A stretch of DNA of 52,282 nt from a virus. Shown in pieces: positions 2,942 to 44,122 of the stretch (positions are counted from its first letter, which is position 1; each line of letters starts with the position of its first letter). The stretch covers positions 1 through 52,282 of the IMG/VR virus record IMGVR_UViG_3300006789_000002. One strand, 5' to 3'. Position numbers and translations under genes: made by a program. The notes beneath the pieces were generated by a model. The model ran no database searches, had not been told where the DNA came from, and was given only the letters and a program-made list of their open reading frames with translations.

Positions 2942-5900
2942 ATGGCTGTTAAGTTTACTAACAACGCCAGAACAACTCTTGCTGCTGACATATCAAATAG
3001 TGCAACCACAGCAACAGTTACTAGTGGTTCTGTATTCCCAGTATTAAATGCTGGAGAATATTTCTATTGCACATTTGATAATGGAACAAATAACGAAATT
3101 GTTAAGGTTACTGCAAGGAGTGGCAACACCCTTACCATAGTTCGTGGTGTAGATAACACGACAGCTAGAGCCTTCTCAACAGACGATGCTGCGGAGCTAA
3201 GAGCTACCGCTGGTCTTCTAACAGACATACAAGAAAACATTGCAGCTAAGTCTGCAAACCAAACAGTATATAACGCAACCACTGCATCAAGTGCAACAGA
3301 CTATGACATAGGTATAGATCCTGGTCTTGAAAGCAACGCAATGGTATTTCTCAATGGTGTAATGCAACACCATGACACTTTTTCATTTAGTGGATCCACA
3401 TTAACATTTGATACTGCTCCATCAAACGGACTGGCTTTAGAGGTTATTGTCGATAACTTAATTAACCTTCAGTCGTCTAACTTAACGGTAGACACATTTA
3501 CCGCAGCGGACGTTGGCGGCAATCCACAGGTTGACTTTGTTCTATCAGATGCCCCTGCGGGAGAAACAAATCTGATTGTATTTGTGGATGGAGTATTCCA
3601 GGCTAACGACACTTACACGATTTCAAGCACAACACTAAGCATGACTGATGGGGTTACTGCTGACATGACTGTAACAGTTTATGTAATGAACCCAGTTAAC
3701 ATAGGTGCTCCTAGCGATAATACAGTCACTAGCTCCAAGCTATCTGGCAACATAACCATGCCCGCCGATCTTACGGTAACAGGTGACGTTGCATTCGATT
3801 CCCCAACATTTGTAGTAGACAACGCTAATTCAAGAGTAGGTATAGGCACCGCATCACCCTCAACGCTTTTAGATATAGTTGGCGATGTAAAAATGTCTGC
3901 AAACCTAACAGTAGATACAGATACTCTACACGTTGATGCTACAAATAATAGAGTTGGAATTGGGACAACAAATCCACAAGGAACATTCGTAGTATCTAAT
4001 TCGGGAGCAGGTGGTTTTGAATTTACGCCTGACACCACATCTTTTAGTGTTGCTAATTCAAACTATATAGCTTCATATGATAGAAGTGCTTCTGCTTATA
4101 GAGATATAGTAGTTGATTTAGGTGGTGCAGAATCACAAGCAGTTAGATTTAAAGCAGGAGGCTCGGTTGGTATTGGAACGAGTGCACCTCTCGCTAAATT
4201 AGATGTTCGTATGTCTGACTCTAATGGTGACTATGGTCGTGGACGTGATGGTAATTTAAATTTAGAAAATACAAATACATCAGTTACTGAAGGCGGATGG
4301 TTGTCAATATCTGGTTATATGGGAAATTCAGCTTCTAACGGACAATATCAGATGGGTTATATAAGCGGTGGGAAACAGACAACTGCAGCTGATGGAGACT
4401 ATGGCGGCTACTTAACTTTTTGGACTACATCGAGTGGAGCAAATGGCGAAGCTAATAGTGGTGGCTATGAACGCATGAGAATAGACTCATCAGGACAATT
4501 ATTATTAGGAACTACTACTAGTGATTCTTTGTTATCAGTTGATATACAAAATACTTCTGCAAGTTCAAACAATACTTTAGTAAGAATTAAAAATACTATT
4601 GGAAGTGAAGATGCAGGTTTAATTATTGATGGTAATAATAGTGGTCAAAACGAATATAGAATAGGTGTAAATACTGTAGCTGATACTTCTGATTTAACTT
4701 TTAGTGGTGGTACAGGATATAGATTTTATACAGGTTCTACAGAAGCCATGAGAATATCCAGCAATGGTCAAGTACTTTTAACAGCAGCACATCCCTCTAT
4801 CCAATTTACAGATTCAAGCGATAATAGTGATGCGTATATACAAGCTGATGGTGGAACACTAAGATTTTTTGCTGATGATAATAATGAAGTAGGCAGTTCA
4901 TTCCAATCTTTTCATGTTGATGGAAGTGAAAAAATGAGAATAGACCAATCAGGCAGCCTGTTGGTGGGTAAAACAGAAGATGGAGGATCTAACCCTGGTC
5001 ATGTCTTTTTTGGTGCTGGTGCAGCTTATCATATACGTGATGGTGGTTTCACTAACTACTTTAATCGTAAATCTTCAGATGGTGAAATACTTAGGTTTGC
5101 AAAAGATGGCTCAACAGTTGGAAGTATTGGTGCTAGTGTTGGCGATTTAACAATTTACAGCAGCTCAAACAATCATTGTGGCTTGAGATTTACTTCAGGT
5201 GGACTAGCACCTGTAGATGATGATGGTGCTTTAGTAGCTGATACTGTAGATATAGGGCAAAGTAGTTGGAAGTTTAAAGATTTACATCTTTCAGGCGGTG
5301 CTTATGTATACGAAGTTCAGACTCAAACATTAGGATTAGGAAGTACTGTAGCTGGTGCATCTGTGGGTACTAACTACTCTGAGCCTAAAGGAGTTTTTTG
5401 GCATAACGGTGGGGGTATGACTGATTATGCAATCTATAGAACACCAGGGGCTTGGTCAGGTAATTACCAACAATTAAAACTTGACTGGGACACTGGGATT
5501 ATTATAGACGGAGGTACTGCTTACGGTAAATCAGGTGTACATATCCATGGAAATATTAGTATGGGAGATAGTACTTATAGTAATTTTACTTCTCCAAACT
5601 ATCCTGTTCATATTTGTGCAGATAATTATGGATTGATGATTGAAAGTGCTACAGGGTATGGTCATCTTGGTTCAAATAATACGTCATATTTTCATTTCGG
5701 AGGAAATAGAAATTTTTACTTTGACAATCGTTGTGAAGCCTCAGGGGGCTTTCATACATATTCAGATGAAAATTTAAAGAAAGAAATAACTGTAATACCC
5801 TCAGCACTTAATAAAGTAGCAAAAATGAATGGTGTGACCTTTAAATGGAAAGACGCAGCAAAAAGAGGCGGTGGAGATGCTGGGAAACAATTTGGTGTTA

Positions 5901-6109
5901 CAGCTCAAAATATGTTAGAAGTAGATTCTGAATTACCCACAAAAAATATAGACCCACTTTATAATGTAGAAGATGGCGTTAGTGCTGATGATGAATATTA
6001 CACAATGGATTATAATAGAATTACGCCATTCTTAATTGAAGCAGTAAAAGAATTAAAAACAAAACTAGAAGCAGCAGAAGCTAGAATAGCAACATTGGAG
6101 AGTGAATAA
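2942..6109 (+). CDS. Long tail fibre with C-terminal S74 (endosialidase-type) intramolecular chaperone
   Basis: A 1055-residue tail fibre. The first about 250 residues contain two repeats of a phage fibre attachment domain (NLIVFVDGVFQ-type strands). The middle is beta-rich with recurrent VGIGT boxes and MRI(D/S)SSG segments typical of trimeric beta-helix fibres. The C-terminal about 115 residues are a peptidase S74 domain: the Ser-Asp-Glu-Asn-Leu-Lys-Lys motif begins at Ser941, followed by FGVTAQNM and a terminal coiled coil (LIEAVKELKTKLEAAEARIATLE). In this family the domain trimerises and folds the fibre, then cuts itself off before the Ser. From about base 4000 the sequence becomes more AT-rich than the start of the gene, which suggests a swapped receptor-binding module. 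The stop overlaps the next start (TAATG). Confidence 0.85.
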   Translation: MAVKFTNNARTTLAADISNSATTATVTSGSVFPVLNAGEYFYCTFDNGTNNEIVKVTARSGNTLTIVRGVDNTTARAFSTDDAAELRATAGLLTDIQENIAAKSANQTVYNATTASSATDYDIGIDPGLESNAMVFLNGVMQHHDTFSFSGSTLTFDTAPSNGLALEVIVDNLINLQSSNLTVDTFTAADVGGNPQVDFVLSDAPAGETNLIVFVDGVFQANDTYTISSTTLSMTDGVTADMTVTVYVMNPVNIGAPSDNTVTSSKLSGNITMPADLTVTGDVAFDSPTFVVDNANSRVGIGTASPSTLLDIVGDVKMSANLTVDTDTLHVDATNNRVGIGTTNPQGTFVVSNSGAGGFEFTPDTTSFSVANSNYIASYDRSASAYRDIVVDLGGAESQAVRFKAGGSVGIGTSAPLAKLDVRMSDSNGDYGRGRDGNLNLENTNTSVTEGGWLSISGYMGNSASNGQYQMGYISGGKQTTAADGDYGGYLTFWTTSSGANGEANSGGYERMRIDSSGQLLLGTTTSDSLLSVDIQNTSASSNNTLVRIKNTIGSEDAGLIIDGNNSGQNEYRIGVNTVADTSDLTFSGGTGYRFYTGSTEAMRISSNGQVLLTAAHPSIQFTDSSDNSDAYIQADGGTLRFFADDNNEVGSSFQSFHVDGSEKMRIDQSGSLLVGKTEDGGSNPGHVFFGAGAAYHIRDGGFTNYFNRKSSDGEILRFAKDGSTVGSIGASVGDLTIYSSSNNHCGLRFTSGGLAPVDDDGALVADTVDIGQSSWKFKDLHLSGGAYVYEVQTQTLGLGSTVAGASVGTNYSEPKGVFWHNGGGMTDYAIYRTPGAWSGNYQQLKLDWDTGIIIDGGTAYGKSGVHIHGNISMGDSTYSNFTSPNYPVHICADNYGLMIESATGYGHLGSNNTSYFHFGGNRNFYFDNRCEASGGFHTYSDENLKKEITVIPSALNKVAKMNGVTFKWKDAAKRGGGDAGKQFGVTAQNMLEVDSELPTKNIDPLYNVEDGVSADDEYYTMDYNRITPFLIEAVKELKTKLEAAEARIATLESE

Positions 6110-7638
6110 TGGCTAATACCAAGATCACAACAGACGTAATAGCAGACGGAGCTATAACAAGTGCCAAGCTAGACACTAACATAACTATATCTGGAGATAT
6201 CACAGGTACACTTGCTACAGCAGCACAGCCTAATATTACAAGTCTTGGAACTCTTACAGCTCTTACAGGTGGTACAGGAGATTTAAACTGGGATAGTGGA
6301 ACTTTATTTGTAGATTCTTCTGCTAATTCTGTTGGAATTGGAACTAGTAGTCCTTCAACAACTCTGCATGTAACAAGTCCAGCAGGCTCTAATAAATCAG
6401 CAATAATTACTAGGACTTCAGGTGCAGAAGCAATTAATTTAAGCGAAATGCAAGATTATAATGCCTTGCAAATACTAAACAAAAATAGTGGCTCATATTT
6501 AAACTTTGCAGGTAATGCTTCACATAGTTCAATACAAGCACAATCTAATGGTAGTACAGCAGAGGATATAGCCTTAAATCCTTATGGTGGCAATGTTGGA
6601 ATTGGAATGACACCAGCACCAGTTGGTTCTGATACAGTATTAGCATTATATAACTCTGCAACACCTAGAATAAAATTACATAATGCAGCAACTGGAACCG
6701 CAGGTACAGATGGTGGCGAAATTAACATGAGTTCAACTAATTTAATAATAGAAAATAGAGAAGCAGCTAATATTAAATTTTATAATAATGGTTCACAGAG
6801 ATTTAATATTGATAATAGAGGAAATTTATCTTTTGGTAGTCAAACATCAGACCCAGTATGGTCACAGTTTTTTAATGCAATATCTTCTAATCATGGTGGA
6901 CATGTATCTTTTCAAAGTAATAGTTTCCCTAATACTTCTTTAGGTAATAATTTTTATATTAATAATTCAACTCAAAATCAAAGAGTATTAGGATATCCTA
7001 CACAACAGTTTAAATTAGACCATCAGGGGAATTTCTTATTTGAAAGTGCAGCTAGTGGCACAGCAGGTGCAACTTTTAGTTTTACTGAGAAGATGAGACT
7101 AACTAATGAAGGTGCTTTAGGTATTAATAGTACATCAGATTCATTTAATGTAATGTCAACTGGAAGGGGACATATATTCAGACCTAATGGTGAGTCATTT
7201 CATAGCACAAATGATGCTGGTTCTCAAAATACACTTCATGTTTATGATTATGCAGATTCAACTTACAGGTTTTATGTTAGAGCATCAGGAAGTTCTGCTG
7301 GTAATATTTATGCAACTAATACTTCAATTACTGGACTATCAGACAAAAGATTAAAAGAAAACATTGTAGATTTAGAAACTGGTCTTACCGAAGTAATGGC
7401 ATTACAACCAAGAAGATTTGATTGGAAAAATGGGGATGCACAAAATGTAGCAGGTTTTATAGCACAAGAAGTAGAAAGTGTTTTACCTGAATTAGTTGGA
7501 GATTATAAACACGAGGAGCTTGAAGATTGTAAATCTTTAAAAATGGGAGATATTGTTCCAACACTTGTCAAAGCTATACAAGAACAACAAACAATAATAG
7601 ACGATTTAAAAACTAGAATAGAAACATTAGAAGGATAA
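6109..7638 (+). CDS. Second tail fibre with S74 intramolecular chaperone
   Basis: A 509-residue fibre with the same plan as its upstream neighbour: a short N-terminal attachment part (ITSAKLDTNITISGDITGT), VGIGT boxes in the shaft and a C-terminal S74 chaperone starting at Ser411 (LSDKRLKENIVDLETG), with FIAQEVESVLPELV and a terminal helical stalk. Family knowledge predicts self-cleavage before Ser411 after trimer folding. The body is AT-rich and is likely the variable receptor-binding region. It begins on the stop of the first fibre gene and ends one base before the third. Confidence 0.82.
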   Translation: MANTKITTDVIADGAITSAKLDTNITISGDITGTLATAAQPNITSLGTLTALTGGTGDLNWDSGTLFVDSSANSVGIGTSSPSTTLHVTSPAGSNKSAIITRTSGAEAINLSEMQDYNALQILNKNSGSYLNFAGNASHSSIQAQSNGSTAEDIALNPYGGNVGIGMTPAPVGSDTVLALYNSATPRIKLHNAATGTAGTDGGEINMSSTNLIIENREAANIKFYNNGSQRFNIDNRGNLSFGSQTSDPVWSQFFNAISSNHGGHVSFQSNSFPNTSLGNNFYINNSTQNQRVLGYPTQQFKLDHQGNFLFESAASGTAGATFSFTEKMRLTNEGALGINSTSDSFNVMSTGRGHIFRPNGESFHSTNDAGSQNTLHVYDYADSTYRFYVRASGSSAGNIYATNTSITGLSDKRLKENIVDLETGLTEVMALQPRRFDWKNGDAQNVAGFIAQEVESVLPELVGDYKHEELEDCKSLKMGDIVPTLVKAIQEQQTIIDDLKTRIETLEG

Positions 7639-7639
7639 G

Positions 7640-9670
7640 ATGGCAAAGACAAAGATACCAGGTGAATATTTAAAAGACTCAGTAGTACGCTTCACGGCTA
7701 AGGCGGGGGAAAATATAACCAAGGGACAAGCTGTATATATCTCAGGCATATCAGGAGAAGTCCCAGTAGTATCTTTAGCAGACGCAGATGATACAAATAA
7801 AATGCCAGCCTTCGGTCTTGCCGAATCAACCGTCTCAACAAACGCATCAGTAGAAGTAACAAGCAACGGAACTCTAGCAGGAATAGACACGTCCTCTTAT
7901 GCACTCGGAGATATACTGTATATATCTACAACAGCAGGATCTTTAACAAACGATCCCTCTGGACTAGAGGCAAGCAAAGTACAGAACATTGGTATGGTGC
8001 AAAGGGTTCATGCCAACAACGGATCTATCAAGGTGGGCGGAGCGGGGAGAACAAATGCAACCCCAAATCTTAATGACGGAAACATATTCGTAGGTAACTC
8101 CAGTAACAAGTCCGTAGCAGATTCATTCACAGATGTATTAAACGATCAGGCTGGAATTAACTCCAGTGCTAACGCCACAGCTATAACTATTGATAGTAGT
8201 GAGAATGTTGGAATTGGGGTTACGCCAAAAGCATATCATTCAGACTATAAAGCTATAGACATCAATAATAGTGCTAGTGTCATGGGTTATACAGGTAACA
8301 ATGGTGCTTGGCTAATGGAGAACTTATATTATGATGGTAACTGGAAACATAAAAATAGTGATTTTTCAGCCTTGGTTGAAATGTATGATGGTGTTTTTAA
8401 TTTCTATAATACTGTTTCAGGAACAGCAGGAGCAACAGCAACTTTACAAAATCGTTTAAAAATTGACCAATCAGGCAATGTTGGAATTGGAGCTGATAGT
8501 CCTACAAGTTATTATTCAAGAAGTTTAGTAGTTTCTGCTACTGCTGAACAAGGTATTACTATAGCTGCAACTGGAACTAGCATGTCAAACTATCTTATGT
8601 TTGCAGACGGTACTACAGGAAATGAAGCATATCGTGGTTACATAGCTTATAGTCATACGAATGATAAAATGGCATTTGCTGCTGGTGGTGAAGAAAAAAT
8701 GTATATTGACTCATCAGGCAATGTTGGAATTGGAATTAGTAATCCAGCAGACTACAATTTTGATACTGGTGTAAATTTAGTTGTTGGAAGCTCTAGCACA
8801 AATGGTCAAATACAAGTTTTATCAGGAACAAGCGGTATAGGTTATTTAGCTTTTGCTGATGGAGTAACTGGAGCAGAAAACTACAGAGGTCTTATTCAGT
8901 ATCATCATGGAAGTAATTACATGGGTTTAAGAACCAATGGCAATGAACGCATGAGAATTACCTCAACAGGTAATTTAGAATTTAAGAGTACAACAACCAC
9001 TTTTACTGGTGCTTCATCTTTTACAAATCATTCAAATGGAGTTTTATATTTAAGAGGTGGAACTTCAGGACTAAGGCTTGATGATAACGATAGTCATAAC
9101 ACAATTCACGTTAGTGGTGCGGGTAACTATATTGCTTTTGAAACTTTAAGTGGAGTAGAACGCTGGAGATTTAACTCAACAGGACACTTCACACCTGCTC
9201 AACAACATACATATGATATAGGCGGAGTTAATGCGGAAGTTAGAAATATTTATGCACAAGGATTATATGTAGGTGGTTCAGCAGCAGCAAACAAACTTGA
9301 CGATTATGAAGAAGGTACTTGGACTCCAGTTCTATCAGGTTCAGGATATGCTTTTGGCACAAATAGTGGAGTATATGTAAAAGTAGGAAGAATGGTAATT
9401 GCAACAGCAAAACTAATTATAACCTCAGTAGGTAGTAATACTTCAGTCATTAGTATATCTGGATATCCATTTACATCATATAGTGCAAATAATAATCACC
9501 AAGTTGGTACTGTTAGAGAAAGTGCAACAACAGGTAAATTTTATGTTTGTCAAATTAATGTGAATAACACTATTGGTAGTATGAATTCAATGGATGGTAT
9601 TAGTAGTGGTAGTAATGAAATATTTACAACAGGTACATACTCTTTATCTATAACTTACATGACAGCATAA
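7640..9670 (+). CDS. Third tail fibre (no S74 domain)
   Basis: A 676-residue fibre. The N-terminal about 140 residues (FTAKAGENITKGQAVYISG ...) form a domain often fused to fibres, followed by shaft repeats with VGIG boxes. The C-terminus is not S74 but a 'DDYEEGTWTPVLSG' domain of about 120 residues seen at the ends of many marine phage fibres, probably an alternative receptor-binding or trimerisation tip. The phage thus encodes three fibres in tandem, two with cleavable chaperones. Short near-identical DNA blocks around GGCAATGTTGGAATTGGA recur in fibres two and three. Confidence 0.78.
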   Translation: MAKTKIPGEYLKDSVVRFTAKAGENITKGQAVYISGISGEVPVVSLADADDTNKMPAFGLAESTVSTNASVEVTSNGTLAGIDTSSYALGDILYISTTAGSLTNDPSGLEASKVQNIGMVQRVHANNGSIKVGGAGRTNATPNLNDGNIFVGNSSNKSVADSFTDVLNDQAGINSSANATAITIDSSENVGIGVTPKAYHSDYKAIDINNSASVMGYTGNNGAWLMENLYYDGNWKHKNSDFSALVEMYDGVFNFYNTVSGTAGATATLQNRLKIDQSGNVGIGADSPTSYYSRSLVVSATAEQGITIAATGTSMSNYLMFADGTTGNEAYRGYIAYSHTNDKMAFAAGGEEKMYIDSSGNVGIGISNPADYNFDTGVNLVVGSSSTNGQIQVLSGTSGIGYLAFADGVTGAENYRGLIQYHHGSNYMGLRTNGNERMRITSTGNLEFKSTTTTFTGASSFTNHSNGVLYLRGGTSGLRLDDNDSHNTIHVSGAGNYIAFETLSGVERWRFNSTGHFTPAQQHTYDIGGVNAEVRNIYAQGLYVGGSAAANKLDDYEEGTWTPVLSGSGYAFGTNSGVYVKVGRMVIATAKLIITSVGSNTSVISISGYPFTSYSANNNHQVGTVRESATTGKFYVCQINVNNTIGSMNSMDGISSGSNEIFTTGTYSLSITYMTA

Positions 9671-34067: not shown

Positions 34068-35015
34068 TTATTCCTCCAGTAGTTTGGTATAAACTCTAGA
34101 GTCACCCTCAGATCTGTAATTCTCCATTACGTCTACAGGTATCTCTTGATCCTTTACCAATCTGGCATAGTTTATTCTCCCTCTTGCTTGTGTCATATGA
34201 CACTTCACTTGTGAGGTACTAAAAGCTCCGCCATGCTTTGATATAAGCTTGACAGACAATTCTTTTTTCCTTTCATCAAGGATCGAAGCTTTGTCTTTGA
34301 GCTGCTTTAGTTCTGTTAAAACAGATGCTAATTCAGATGTATCATCCTCATCATCAACTGCCTTGTAATTTATTCCAGGTTCTTCTTTTTCTTGAGTCCA
34401 CCTTTCAATATAATTAGGGTCTATCTTTTTTTCGTTATACCAAACCATAAACTCTTCTGCTTTTGGTATATATGTTTCTGCCCAAGATAGATCTCTTTCA
34501 ACCCACTCTTGATAGTGCTCATCATTGCTATACCATTGAAAGAAAAGCATTTCATCTATGTCCATGCACTCCATAGCCATTTGCATTTGATGCCAGTAAT
34601 TTTTTTTTTGTTCTTTAACATTGGTACATGGTTTTCCCTGTGGGCATTTTACTTCTACAGCAGAAACCTTGCCGTTTCTTCCTTGGACCATTATTCCGTC
34701 TGGAGAAATACCCATCCAGTTATGCTTTGGATGTATAACAAAAGATGGTTGGGTTATCTTGTAGCCCATTTCTGATAGTGTTGCTAAGGCTAGTGGTTCG
34801 CTATCTGTACCGTGCTTCATGGCAAACATAGCAAATTGATTAAAGGGATCTTGAGTTAATTTATTAGACTCTCTATACATGTCTCTGCCCAAAGACTCCC
34901 ATTGATCGCCCTTTGTCCAAATACATTCCTTAGCTGTCTTGCATATTCTTGTGCCAGTAATTCTGTTTGCCCTTTGTTCATGCCACTCAGGTGTGCCTTG
35001 TTTTATTTTAGCCAT
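34068..35015 (-). CDS. YqaJ-type exonuclease (lambda Exo family)
   Basis: 315 residues. N-terminus IKQGTPEWHEQRANRITGT is the YqaJ opening. Catalytic elements: Glu in KHGTDSEPLALATL, Asp in GISPDGIMV and Glu-x-Lys in AVEVKCP. The C-terminal third is a charged helical extension with DEDDTSELASVLTEL. It degrades one strand from double-strand ends to feed the annealase. Its start codon overlaps the ERF stop, so the two are a recombination pair. Confidence 0.88.
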   Translation of the reverse strand: MAKIKQGTPEWHEQRANRITGTRICKTAKECIWTKGDQWESLGRDMYRESNKLTQDPFNQFAMFAMKHGTDSEPLALATLSEMGYKITQPSFVIHPKHNWMGISPDGIMVQGRNGKVSAVEVKCPQGKPCTNVKEQKKNYWHQMQMAMECMDIDEMLFFQWYSNDEHYQEWVERDLSWAETYIPKAEEFMVWYNEKKIDPNYIERWTQEKEEPGINYKAVDDEDDTSELASVLTELKQLKDKASILDERKKELSVKLISKHGGAFSTSQVKCHMTQARGRINYARLVKDQEIPVDVMENYRSEGDSRVYTKLLEE

Positions 35016-35629
35016 TACTTAATCACCTTGCTGTATAAAAGATTTAGCTGAACCCTTGCCTCTTTATCGCTACTAAGATCAGCAACTTTGTCATACTGTT
35101 GGAAAAGCTTGAGTGCCTCTTCTTTTGTTTTGACTTTTTTAAGCTCCTTTTTAAATTCATCTATCATTGATATTTCTTGTTGATCATTTTCTGGTTTTGA
35201 ATTTTCATCCACGCCCTCAAGCTCTGGCTCAACAACACCTTCAAACGGTACACAAAATGTTTCTAATAAGGCATTCCTGTAAGCAAATGATCTTGCCGCT
35301 TCAAGGTCCTTAGCCTGCTGTGACAAGCTATGACCAACATATGATCTGTCTACATATGATCCGTCTTCAGTACATAAAAACCTTAAAGTTCCAACAACTC
35401 TTGTAAGGGTGTTCTTTCCATCAATGAATTTTGTAGATACATTTAAGTCTGGCTGAACTATTGTAAGAATTTTATTTTCATACAGGGGTTTTGAAAAAGA
35501 TTGAATGATCTGATCGATACCTCTATATTTATATTTCTGATAGTTATTGACACCCTCTTTTGCTATTGGGTTGTGCATCATGTAATTTTGTACGTTTTGC
35601 AACGCCTCGTATATTTTTTCTTTTGCCAT
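35015..35629 (-). CDS. erf: ERF-family single-strand annealing protein
   Basis: 204 residues. Core ERF motifs are visible: YKYRGIDQIIQSFSKPL near residue 30, then VVGTLRFLC, and QAKDLEAARSFAYRNALLE followed by FCVPFEG. The C-terminal 60 residues are acidic then helical, likely for partner contacts. It anneals complementary strands during phage recombination. First gene of the leftward recombination operon, 21 bases downstream of promoter 35650-35678. Confidence 0.85.
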   Translation of the reverse strand: MAKEKIYEALQNVQNYMMHNPIAKEGVNNYQKYKYRGIDQIIQSFSKPLYENKILTIVQPDLNVSTKFIDGKNTLTRVVGTLRFLCTEDGSYVDRSYVGHSLSQQAKDLEAARSFAYRNALLETFCVPFEGVVEPELEGVDENSKPENDQQEISMIDEFKKELKKVKTKEEALKLFQQYDKVADLSSDKEARVQLNLLYSKVIK

Positions 35630-40651: not shown

Positions 40652-40681
40652 AAAGCGGAGTAAGGACCCCGCTTTATTTTT
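40652..40681. terminator. Bidirectional intrinsic terminator
   Basis: AAAGCGG (40652-40658), ten-base loop, CCGCTTT (40669-40675), then ATTTTTG; the minus strand also has a T run after the stem. It separates the rightward replication operon from the convergent ribozyme-bearing operon. Confidence 0.85.
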
Positions 40682-42501: not shown

Positions 42502-42569
42502 GACTAAGACCTCCTCGATTCGCGGGGAAAAGAGAAGGTTTCGACCAATCAGGTCATCATCAGTTAGCC
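42502..42569 (-). ncRNA. Type I hammerhead ribozyme, copy 1 (variant)
   Basis: Minus strand 5'-3': stem I GGCTAA, core CTGATGA, stem II GACC/GGTC with loop TGATT, GAAA, stem III CCTTCTC/GAGGAGG with a 15-base loop, then TC and closing TTAGTC. Cleavage is predicted after the C of the GTC triplet. It differs from copies 2 and 3 by a longer stem III and by one extra U between core and stem II (base 42556), which might weaken activity. It begins at the stop codon of the 42569-42952 gene. Confidence 0.8.
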
Positions 42570-42952
42570 TATGAGTGAAAGAACATATCCCAGCTACGAA
42601 CTATGTCGTATACGTTGTACTCAGAACCATTCTTGATAGCCTCAGCAAGATCATTGAAGACCGCCTTTCTATACTCATACCTGTCAGGCTTGTTGATGGT
42701 GTAGCCCTTGTCCATGAAGTAGGCATAGCTTTCTATGATCCCATAATCCTTGGACTGCTCTTTGGTGATCCATTTAGCCATGTCTTCTGCTTGATCATGA
42801 AAAGATTTTTTGAGCTCAACATATTTCAAGAAGTTGCCGTGGTTGATTAAAGACAATTCATCCTTATCAGCTGTACCCATAATCTTAGTAGCAATAGCCA
42901 TTTCTTTTTCCCAAGTTAGTTGAGCATCAGTTTTAGTATTTAGTTTTGTCAT
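42569..42952 (-). CDS. Hypothetical protein, 127 aa, between ribozymes 1 and 2
   Basis: Helical, charged (LKKSFHDQAEDMAKWITKEQ), with aromatic residues at the C-terminus. ATG after TAGGAGGTAAAT. Its stop TAG overlaps the 5' end of ribozyme 1. No known domain. Confidence 0.6.
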   Translation of the reverse strand: MTKLNTKTDAQLTWEKEMAIATKIMGTADKDELSLINHGNFLKYVELKKSFHDQAEDMAKWITKEQSKDYGIIESYAYFMDKGYTINKPDRYEYRKAVFNDLAEAIKNGSEYNVYDIVRSWDMFFHS

Positions 42953-42976
42953 ATTTACCTCCTAAGTAATTGTTTT

Positions 42977-43028
42977 GACTAAGACTCCCCGTGGGGAGTT
43001 TCGCTCACTAAGAGCTCATCAGTTAGCC
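42977..43028 (-). ncRNA. Type I hammerhead ribozyme, copy 2
   Basis: Minus strand: GGCTAA, CTGATGA, stem II GCTC/GAGC (loop TTAGT), GAAA, stem III CTCCC/GGGAG (loop CACG), TC, TTAGTC. All invariant core bases present; cleavage after GTC. It starts on the stop codon of the 43028-43516 gene and ends 25 bases before the next ATG. Confidence 0.93.
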
Positions 43029-43516
43029 TATTCTCCATCAAAGTAAGCTGTCCAAGACCTCTCCAAGTTGAAGGTAAGTGTATGAGTTTTGCCATTATTA
43101 TATGTATCGCCTTGAGACATAAAAACTGAGTCAAAATAATTTCTTTGAGAAAAGTGATCCATCGCCTGACGCTCTAAAGCCCCCATGAATCCCTCAAACC
43201 TTTCAGCGTGCTCAGATGGAATCTCACTTGTAAATCTAGCAGAATATATGTGCCTCACACAGTCATCTCCACGATTGATGTTTTGTGCTGTAAAGTTGGT
43301 CATGAAAGCCCAGTCAAGATCAACACCTCTTAGTCCAAGCTTGTTATATGCAAATTCAAATATCTCATTATGAAACCACATAAGGATGTTGTCATAGTCC
43401 TCCCATCCATCAAGTCCGCTTTTATAAAAAGCAGTTCGCCCTGCATAATGCTTATCAGTTGGATCAAGCGTTGTGCTGTTGTTTATTAGTTCTAGTTTTT
43501 TTGTTAATGTTGTCAT
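43028..43516 (-). CDS. Hypothetical protein, 162 aa, between ribozymes 2 and 3
   Basis: ATG after TAGGAGGGAAT. Rich in aromatic residues and His (NILMWFHNEIFEFAYNKLG). No membrane segment. I do not recognise a family. Confidence 0.6.
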   Translation of the reverse strand: MTTLTKKLELINNSTTLDPTDKHYAGRTAFYKSGLDGWEDYDNILMWFHNEIFEFAYNKLGLRGVDLDWAFMTNFTAQNINRGDDCVRHIYSARFTSEIPSEHAERFEGFMGALERQAMDHFSQRNYFDSVFMSQGDTYNNGKTHTLTFNLERSWTAYFDGE

Positions 43517-43537
43517 ATTCCCTCCTACGGTTTGTTT

Positions 43538-43587
43538 GACTAAGACGCCTCACGGCGTTTCGCTCATTAAGAGCTCATCAGTTAGTC
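43538..43587 (-). ncRNA. Type I hammerhead ribozyme, copy 3
   Basis: Minus strand: stem I GACTAA paired perfectly with TTAGTC, core CTGATGA, stem II GCTC/GAGC (loop TTAAT), GAAA, stem III CGCC/GGCG closed by a GTGA (GNRA) tetraloop, TC cleavage site. It begins immediately after the TAA of the 43588-44052 gene. The best match to consensus of the three. Confidence 0.95.
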
Positions 43588-44052
43588 TTATCTATAGTAA
43601 GCATCAAAGGCTGGTGATAAGTGTCTTGGAGTATTTTTTCTCTCCATAAACTTAGTGCCACAAACTTTATTAGTGCGTTCAACCATTGGTTCGTTTTCAT
43701 AAAAGTAGTCGTAAGTCACCACCTCTGAATTGCAAAGATTCTGATAGGCACTCCAGTCGCTATTCCATTGCTTCATCTCTTCGCGATGGGCATCTCTCCC
43801 TTCCTGTGTTGCATACTGGTTAGGACCATTAACCTCTTCTGTGTATCTTCCAGTTTCATAAAGATTGTTGATGTAAGAGTGAGTGTCATTAAGATCATCT
43901 TCAAACCATCCCAAATGATGTTTCTTCATTCTAGTAAGATAGCTTTTAGCTTTAGCTGGAGTATCCCACTCCTTACGCTTGCAATATCTAAACCCAGTTT
44001 TTGGGTTATATATCACGTAAGTTACTGATTTGTCGTTATTTATTGTTGTCAT
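43588..44052 (-). CDS. Hypothetical protein, 154 aa, first gene of the ribozyme operon
   Basis: Start at 44052 after AAAGGAGGCACTT. Contains YVIYNPKTGFRYCKRKEWDT and KAKSYLTRMKKHHLGWF, a region that may be a nucleic-acid or protein binding domain; the end is acidic then basic. Unknown. First gene after promoter 44093-44122. Confidence 0.62.
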   Translation of the reverse strand: MTTINNDKSVTYVIYNPKTGFRYCKRKEWDTPAKAKSYLTRMKKHHLGWFEDDLNDTHSYINNLYETGRYTEEVNGPNQYATQEGRDAHREEMKQWNSDWSAYQNLCNSEVVTYDYFYENEPMVERTNKVCGTKFMERKNTPRHLSPAFDAYYR

Positions 44053-44092: not shown

Positions 44093-44122
44093 ATATTAAT
44101 GCCATACTATATGTAGTGTCAA
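44093..44122 (-). promoter_or_regulatory. Strong sigma-70 promoter of the ribozyme operon, with near-palindrome
   Basis: Minus strand TTGACA (44117-44122), 18 bases, TAATAT (44093-44098). The spacer holds ACTACATATAGT (44106-44117), a 12-base near-palindrome that could be an operator. About 40 bases of leader precede the first ATG. Confidence 0.7.

Follow-up and report, generated by a model that had tools for sequence, protein, structure and literature searches.

The operon considered here carries a small structured element at each of its first three gene junctions, and the question raised by this locus is what these elements are and what they might do for the phage. The window, that is, the whole stretch of DNA analysed, comprises 52,282 bases of an uncultured tailed phage. 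It encodes structural proteins (terminase, portal, major head protein, tail fibre proteins and internal virion protein), as well as a DnaB-like helicase, a replication initiator, an endonuclease VII and an integrase. The best named-phage matches of the portal protein reach 30–36% identity and belong mostly to Pelagibacter and marine Rhodobacteraceae phages, with some from Rhizobium phages, and no close nucleotide relative of the window was found among the named phages searched. Genes 1 and 3 of the operon have no match among 50,697 phage records. In addition, a RecE-like exonuclease gene adjoins a gene for an Erf-like annealing protein at 34068–35629, so that a phage with several near-identical intergenic elements also encodes a single-strand annealing system.

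The operon runs on the minus strand from a putative sigma-70-like promoter to an intrinsic terminator-like hairpin (Table 1). Promoter matches of the TTGACA type number 13 in the window against 11 expected in shuffles, and the one at the operon is among the four best-scoring, so its assignment would rest on position and match quality and not on frequency above shuffles. The mechanically called reading frame of gene 1 starts at 44094, where it touches the promoter match, and the ATG at 44052 behind an AGGAGG is probably the true start. The spacers of genes 1 to 4 consist of a hammerhead, an A-rich leader and AGGAGG, with nothing else, while the later genes are without hammerheads.

Table 1. Features of the hammerhead-bearing operon. 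Family letters follow two schemes, one giving H, O, B and E for genes 1–4 and a second giving K, G and L for genes 1–3.
Feature	Position	Strand	Remarks
Putative sigma-70-like promoter, TTGACA-18-TAATAT	44093..44122	-	consensus match just upstream of gene 1
Gene 1, 154 aa	43588..44052	-	no known family; labels H / K
Hammerhead 1, type I	43538..43587	-	predicted cut between 43544 and 43543
Shine-Dalgarno AGGAGG of gene 2	43521..43526	-	starts 18 nt 3' of the predicted cut of hammerhead 1
Gene 2, 162 aa	43028..43516	-	no known family; labels O / G
Hammerhead 2, type I	42977..43028	-	predicted cut between 42983 and 42982
Gene 3, 127 aa	42569..42952	-	no known family; labels B / L
Hammerhead 3, type I, long stem III	42502..42569	-	predicted cut between 42508 and 42507
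Gene 4, 59 aa	42301..42480	-	label E; opens the hammerhead-free remainder of the operon
Intrinsic terminator-like hairpin with T tail	40652..40675	-	operon end

All three elements follow the same minus-strand order of stem I, CTGATGA, stem II, GAAA, stem III, TC and stem I closure. In hammerhead 1, for instance, stem I is GACTAA/TTAGTC, stem II with its loop is GCTC-TTAAT-GAGC and stem III with its loop is CGCC-GTGA-GGCG. The motifs CTGATGA and GAAA...TC supply the type I core (C3U4G5A6N7G8A9 and G12A13A14, with A15.1-U16.1) in each copy, the descriptor finds GTC as the NUH cleavage triplet in 3/3, and both the MFE folds and the descriptor give three helices with stem I as the open end. When pieces of 60–78 nt were folded alone, the MFE structure of each copy was the exact hammerhead three-way junction, with energies of -17.9, -18.9 and -22.0 kcal/mol (z -2.85, -2.68 and -2.13) for copies 1, 2 and 3, respectively. 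A descriptor scan of both strands found three hammerheads in the whole window and no more. Motifs and predicted folds thus support the assignment of the three elements as type I hammerhead ribozymes, one per operon junction, with a predicted cut at GUC. Descriptor, folds and the covariance scores given below agree on exactly the coordinates proposed by the first-pass annotation. The same annotation saw the complete hammerhead plan in all three copies; the full type I layout is indeed present in each, but the core of copy 3 deviates from the consensus by a single U inserted after A9, ahead of base pair 10.1/11.1 of stem II. It also placed each copy at or directly after a stop codon, which holds for copy 1, directly after TAA, and needs a small correction for copies 2 and 3, which include the final G of the upstream TAG.

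Two covariance models were used to score the elements: R1, built from 60 hammerheads of which two are window copies, and R2, built from 48 hammerheads of other contigs, with the window and the contigs sharing its hammerhead-linked genes left out. R2 gives copies 1, 2 and 3 scores of 73.2, 72.0 and 51.9 bits, with E-values of about 1e-16, 1e-15 and 1e-10 that are rough, as are those of R1, owing to a short calibration. The next-best R2 match in the 52-kb window reaches only 14.5 bits. R1 gives 74.0, 73.5 and 52.7 bits, and in the alignment of copy 3 to this model the extra U is the sole core insertion. By R2, which is independent of the window's own relatives, the three elements are far beyond chance. 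A search with Infernal and the Rfam hammerhead models, the check suggested at first, yields nothing at default thresholds, yet the elements are real by R2 (52–73 bits). Rfam release 15 at its gathering threshold has no match in the window and none in 12 viral contigs rich in the same hammerhead subclass, which indicates that the subclass, readily detected by R1 and R2, is missed as a whole. At a lax limit, the best Rfam matches of the window copies are Hammerhead_HH9 (RF02275; 19.7 bits, E 0.086) and RAGATH-1 (RF03152; 23.2 bits, E 0.45), and the hammerhead scores of 16–23 bits compare with gathering thresholds of 52–56. These Rfam families share the core and the type I topology with the window copies, although HH9 has an extended stem I with an internal loop, which the window copies do not have. 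A score below threshold limits the Rfam label and not the membership in the hammerhead class.

The anatomy of the subclass was described from 122 hammerheads, of which 110 are unique. In 114/122 stem I is 6 bp long, in 99/122 stem II is 4 bp long, and the GUC triplet is found in 113/122. Just before stem I, 96% of the elements have an unpaired A; two As follow the stem (87% and 84%), and loop II is a U-N-A-N-U pentaloop (U 99%, A 90%, U 77%). The A before stem I persists where the stop codon sits elsewhere and is, therefore, more than part of a stop codon. Stem I of the window copies is without an internal loop and thus without the classical loop-loop contact, which makes the speed of cleavage at cellular Mg2+ uncertain. 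From the conserved unpaired A, the AA, the 6-bp stem I and the U-N-A-N-U loop, we infer that loop II could reach the foot of stem I, a contact that would take the place of the loop-loop one usual in fast hammerheads. As in the third window copy, an additional base separates A9 from stem II in 7/122 elements, among them those of L058, L089, L120 and L121.

Among 60 aligned hammerheads, the core letters are invariant and the helices are maintained by compensatory change. Standard pairs fill 98.6% of the pair cells, both sides have changed in 13/15 pairs, and the covariation score is 0.746, whereas shuffles give 0.177 and slid partners no more than 0.10; these figures are inflated because the rows were picked by a descriptor that demands pairing, though no given letters. 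The position of the elements is also characteristic. An ORF end lies upstream in 104/122 and a Shine-Dalgarno sequence with a start codon downstream in 79/122, and both flanks are present in 68/122 (56%) compared with 4% at random positions. The upstream stop codon ends at ribozyme position 0, +1, +6 or +10 in 73/104; in some of these the ribozyme itself supplies the stop, as the TAA of stem I (+6) or the TGA of the core (+10).

Hammerheads of this kind are found in many other phages. Viral contigs (at least 120 stretches) and 84,980 genomes of bacteria and archaea (at least 114 stretches) were searched for a pattern of the core letters and three forced stem I pairs. Among the matches listed, full three-helix hammerheads are present in 63/120 viral stretches and clear model matches in 3/99 genome stretches, a large contrast that compares different tests, the descriptor for viruses and the covariance model for genomes. 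The environmental contigs related to the window hold 2–6 serial hammerheads, and nine in one case. The longest array seen, in G007 (L020, IMGVR_UViG_3300006924_000032, 51,152 bases), has nine type I hammerheads on one strand within 4.3 kb (4442–8726); six occur in G008, five in G022 and 2–4 in many records. Among distantly related phages, eleven records, most of them pelagiphages or roseophages, contain no hammerhead by R1. In the family to which the Legionella genome G051 belongs, 14/37 genomes give model matches, among them G051, G064, G066, G077 and G086, the last with ten. They are presumably mobile elements, and their occurrence is in line with the Legionella cases reported in PMC3088659.

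Phage hammerhead arrays have been known, and a processing role for them proposed, since 2011, when Perreault et al. (PMC3088659) described clustered hammerheads flanking single genes or short blocks in prophages and inferred processing into single-gene messages. In that study, three tandem arrangements cleaved in vitro, one triple array, from Agrobacterium tumefaciens, also did so in E. coli, and the flanked genes were not constant. The window, whose three same-strand hammerheads flank one phage gene after another, belongs to the same group of clustered arrays and shares with the prophage clusters the close spacing of several hammerheads and the proposed role. Those clusters, however, mix hammerheads of types I, II and III, which often have pseudoknots and in many cases lie near integrases, in some near ardA, whereas the window, from an uncultured phage, holds uniform type I copies whose stem I is short and open and which occupy three junctions in succession, one apiece, and the array of nine in G007 is likewise unlike them. 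Another likeness is HHphage of haloviruses HF1 and HF2, a hammerhead just 5' of a start codon in an early operon, for which an RNA 5' end was mapped within 3 nucleotides of the cut (PMC3088659); it differs in being a single copy with a core insertion near C3. Serial use at three junctions, regarded as unusual by the first-pass annotation, is thus not exceptional among the related environmental contigs and has a published precedent, and arrays are commoner and longer in environmental phages than was assumed there. What stands of its interpretation is the identity of the elements, the predicted GUC cut and the one-per-junction layout, and single-gene processing, proposed already in PMC3088659, is the best-supported reading.

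The best explanation for the locus is, at a probability of roughly 0.77, that these cis-acting type I hammerheads serve as intergenic linkers that cut the operon transcript co-transcriptionally into single-gene messages. It is supported by the structure and R2 scores, the covariation, the viral enrichment, the placement behind stop codons and before ribosome sites, the promoter and terminator bracketing the operon, and the precedent of PMC3088659. From these we infer cleavage of all three copies, the message ends and the effects on stability and expression. Each hammerhead would fold on its own transcript during the passage of RNA polymerase and would cut 3' of GUC, ahead of the six nucleotides that make up the 3' side of stem I. 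The upstream message would retain the ribozyme as a 3' tail of two hairpins with a 2',3'-cyclic phosphate end, directly behind its stop codon, while the downstream message would open with a 5'-OH at UUAGUCAAA..., followed by the A-rich leader and AGGAGG. Genes 1, 2 and 3 would thereby be carried on single-gene messages and gene 4 and its followers on one polycistronic message. By known hammerhead chemistry, the upstream RNA would end in a 2',3'-cyclic phosphate and the downstream RNA begin with a 5'-OH. Decay from the 3' end is generally slowed by cyclic ends and hairpins, and RNAs with a 5'-OH are spared the decay pathway that depends on a 5'-monophosphate, both of which might apply here as well. 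The likely benefit would be a standard, insulated 5' leader and 3' end for each small accessory gene, regardless of its neighbours. The leader of gene 1, ACAAACAAACAGCCAAGGAGG, closely resembles the post-cleavage leaders AAACAAACCGTAGGAGG, and in L114 the same leader as gene 1's, AAACAAACAGCCAAGGAGG, stands 3' of a hammerhead. After cleavage, every gene would therefore be preceded by a leader similar to the one with which the primary transcript begins.

Three points may count against the processing reading, namely the core variant of copy 3, the competing fold of hammerhead 2 and the lack of a classical loop-loop contact. When growing transcripts were folded with 20 nt upstream and 0–22 nt downstream, hammerheads 1 and 3 were at the optimum or within 1.4 kcal/mol of it, while for hammerhead 2 a competing fold, in which the end of gene 2 pairs with stem II, was favoured by 1.9–4.1 kcal/mol, and by as much as 6.5 with longer flanks. 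In long context, ViennaRNA weakens stem I of all three, and its energies omit tertiary contacts, Mg2+ and ribosomes.

The genes next to the ribozymes suggest an extension of the processing reading. At loci sharing genes with the window, conserved flanking genes enclose a hammerhead-separated block of 2–5 mostly single genes in many orders, such as H-O-B in the window, M-B-O in L007, J-M-B in L114, H-P-B in L282, P-B in L261 and J-aa-B in L280. The gene leaders and stop flanks travel with the gene, and the hammerhead between two genes varies. For nine cassette families (M, B, O, Q, H, R, J, P and aa), a hammerhead lies 3' of the gene in 40/40 occurrences, and whether one also lies 5' varies with position. 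If every family that has a hammerhead 3' of it at least once is counted, 42/45 occurrences carry one; both counts are small and drawn from related contigs. We tentatively propose ribozyme-bounded cassettes, a possible though not the favoured elaboration, in which an accessory gene would own the hammerhead behind its stop, often supplying that stop, so that its message would be freed with a standard 3' tail wherever the gene lands, the next gene would receive a standard 5' leader, and the ribozyme DNA might act as an exchange seam. Integron gene cassettes offer an analogy only, with a structured element behind each stop codon and many cassette orders; there, however, the element is an attC site and here a ribozyme.

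The same observations could be read the other way round, with the main selection at the DNA level and cleavage secondary or permissive. The hammerheads would then be gene-attached 3' modules or recombination seams, their near-identical DNA behind accessory genes serving as short homology for single-strand annealing that swaps single-gene cassettes, and the phage does encode the RecE-like exonuclease and Erf-like annealing protein for it. Adjacency within the same region, with both genes present, is kept at 60/87 junctions with hammerheads compared with 188/247 without, which is no clear excess of breaks, and this idea is retained merely as a rival. It is the RNA structure with its covarying stems that is conserved rather than the DNA letters, which argues for selection on RNA, and a primarily DNA-level role is considered unlikely.

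Cleavage might alternatively be regulated, with terminating ribosomes at a stop in or near stem I or the core holding the ribozyme open, so that cutting would depend on upstream translation. The stop positions described above fit such coupling, as does the ability of the gene 2 end (GCUUACU) to pair with stem II at junction 2, but the stop overlap is explicable by compact phage spacing alone, and the letters that enable the competing pairing differ in the relatives L005–L007. The alternative fold at junction 2 was rejected as a control switch on the latter ground, and translation coupling in general appears distinctly improbable. That the elements are selfish repeats, or degenerate or inactive relics, and leave the transcript unaffected, as the extra U at the core boundary of copy 3 and the several copies per genome might hint, is very improbable given the invariant core, the compensatory helix changes in 60 sequences and the strict coding-strand position behind stop codons.

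What phage hammerheads are for has been an open question since 2011 (PMC3088659) and still was in a 2017 review, which noted that they flank small genes of unknown function (PMC6155905); no report of a function for phage hammerhead arrays was found in the later open-access literature searched. The uniform, compact, Rfam-missed subclass, the long arrays and the gene-attached pattern are apparently undescribed in the open literature searched, although the supplementary alignments of 2011 may list some of the elements. Added here are the 6-bp open stem I framed by unpaired As, the U-N-A-N-U pentaloop, the ribozymes that start at or supply a stop codon, and the accessory genes that retain their hammerhead as neighbours change. 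Uniform arrays, with the same gene and ribozyme beside different partners, form a clean natural series for testing single-gene messaging, and current annotation overlooks such arrays in environmental phages. Most of the 105 proteins adjoining hammerheads in diverse contigs belong to no family. The recognisable neighbours are of early type, namely two ArdC-like anti-restriction proteins, an N4-like RNA polymerase, a thymidylate synthase and MazG.
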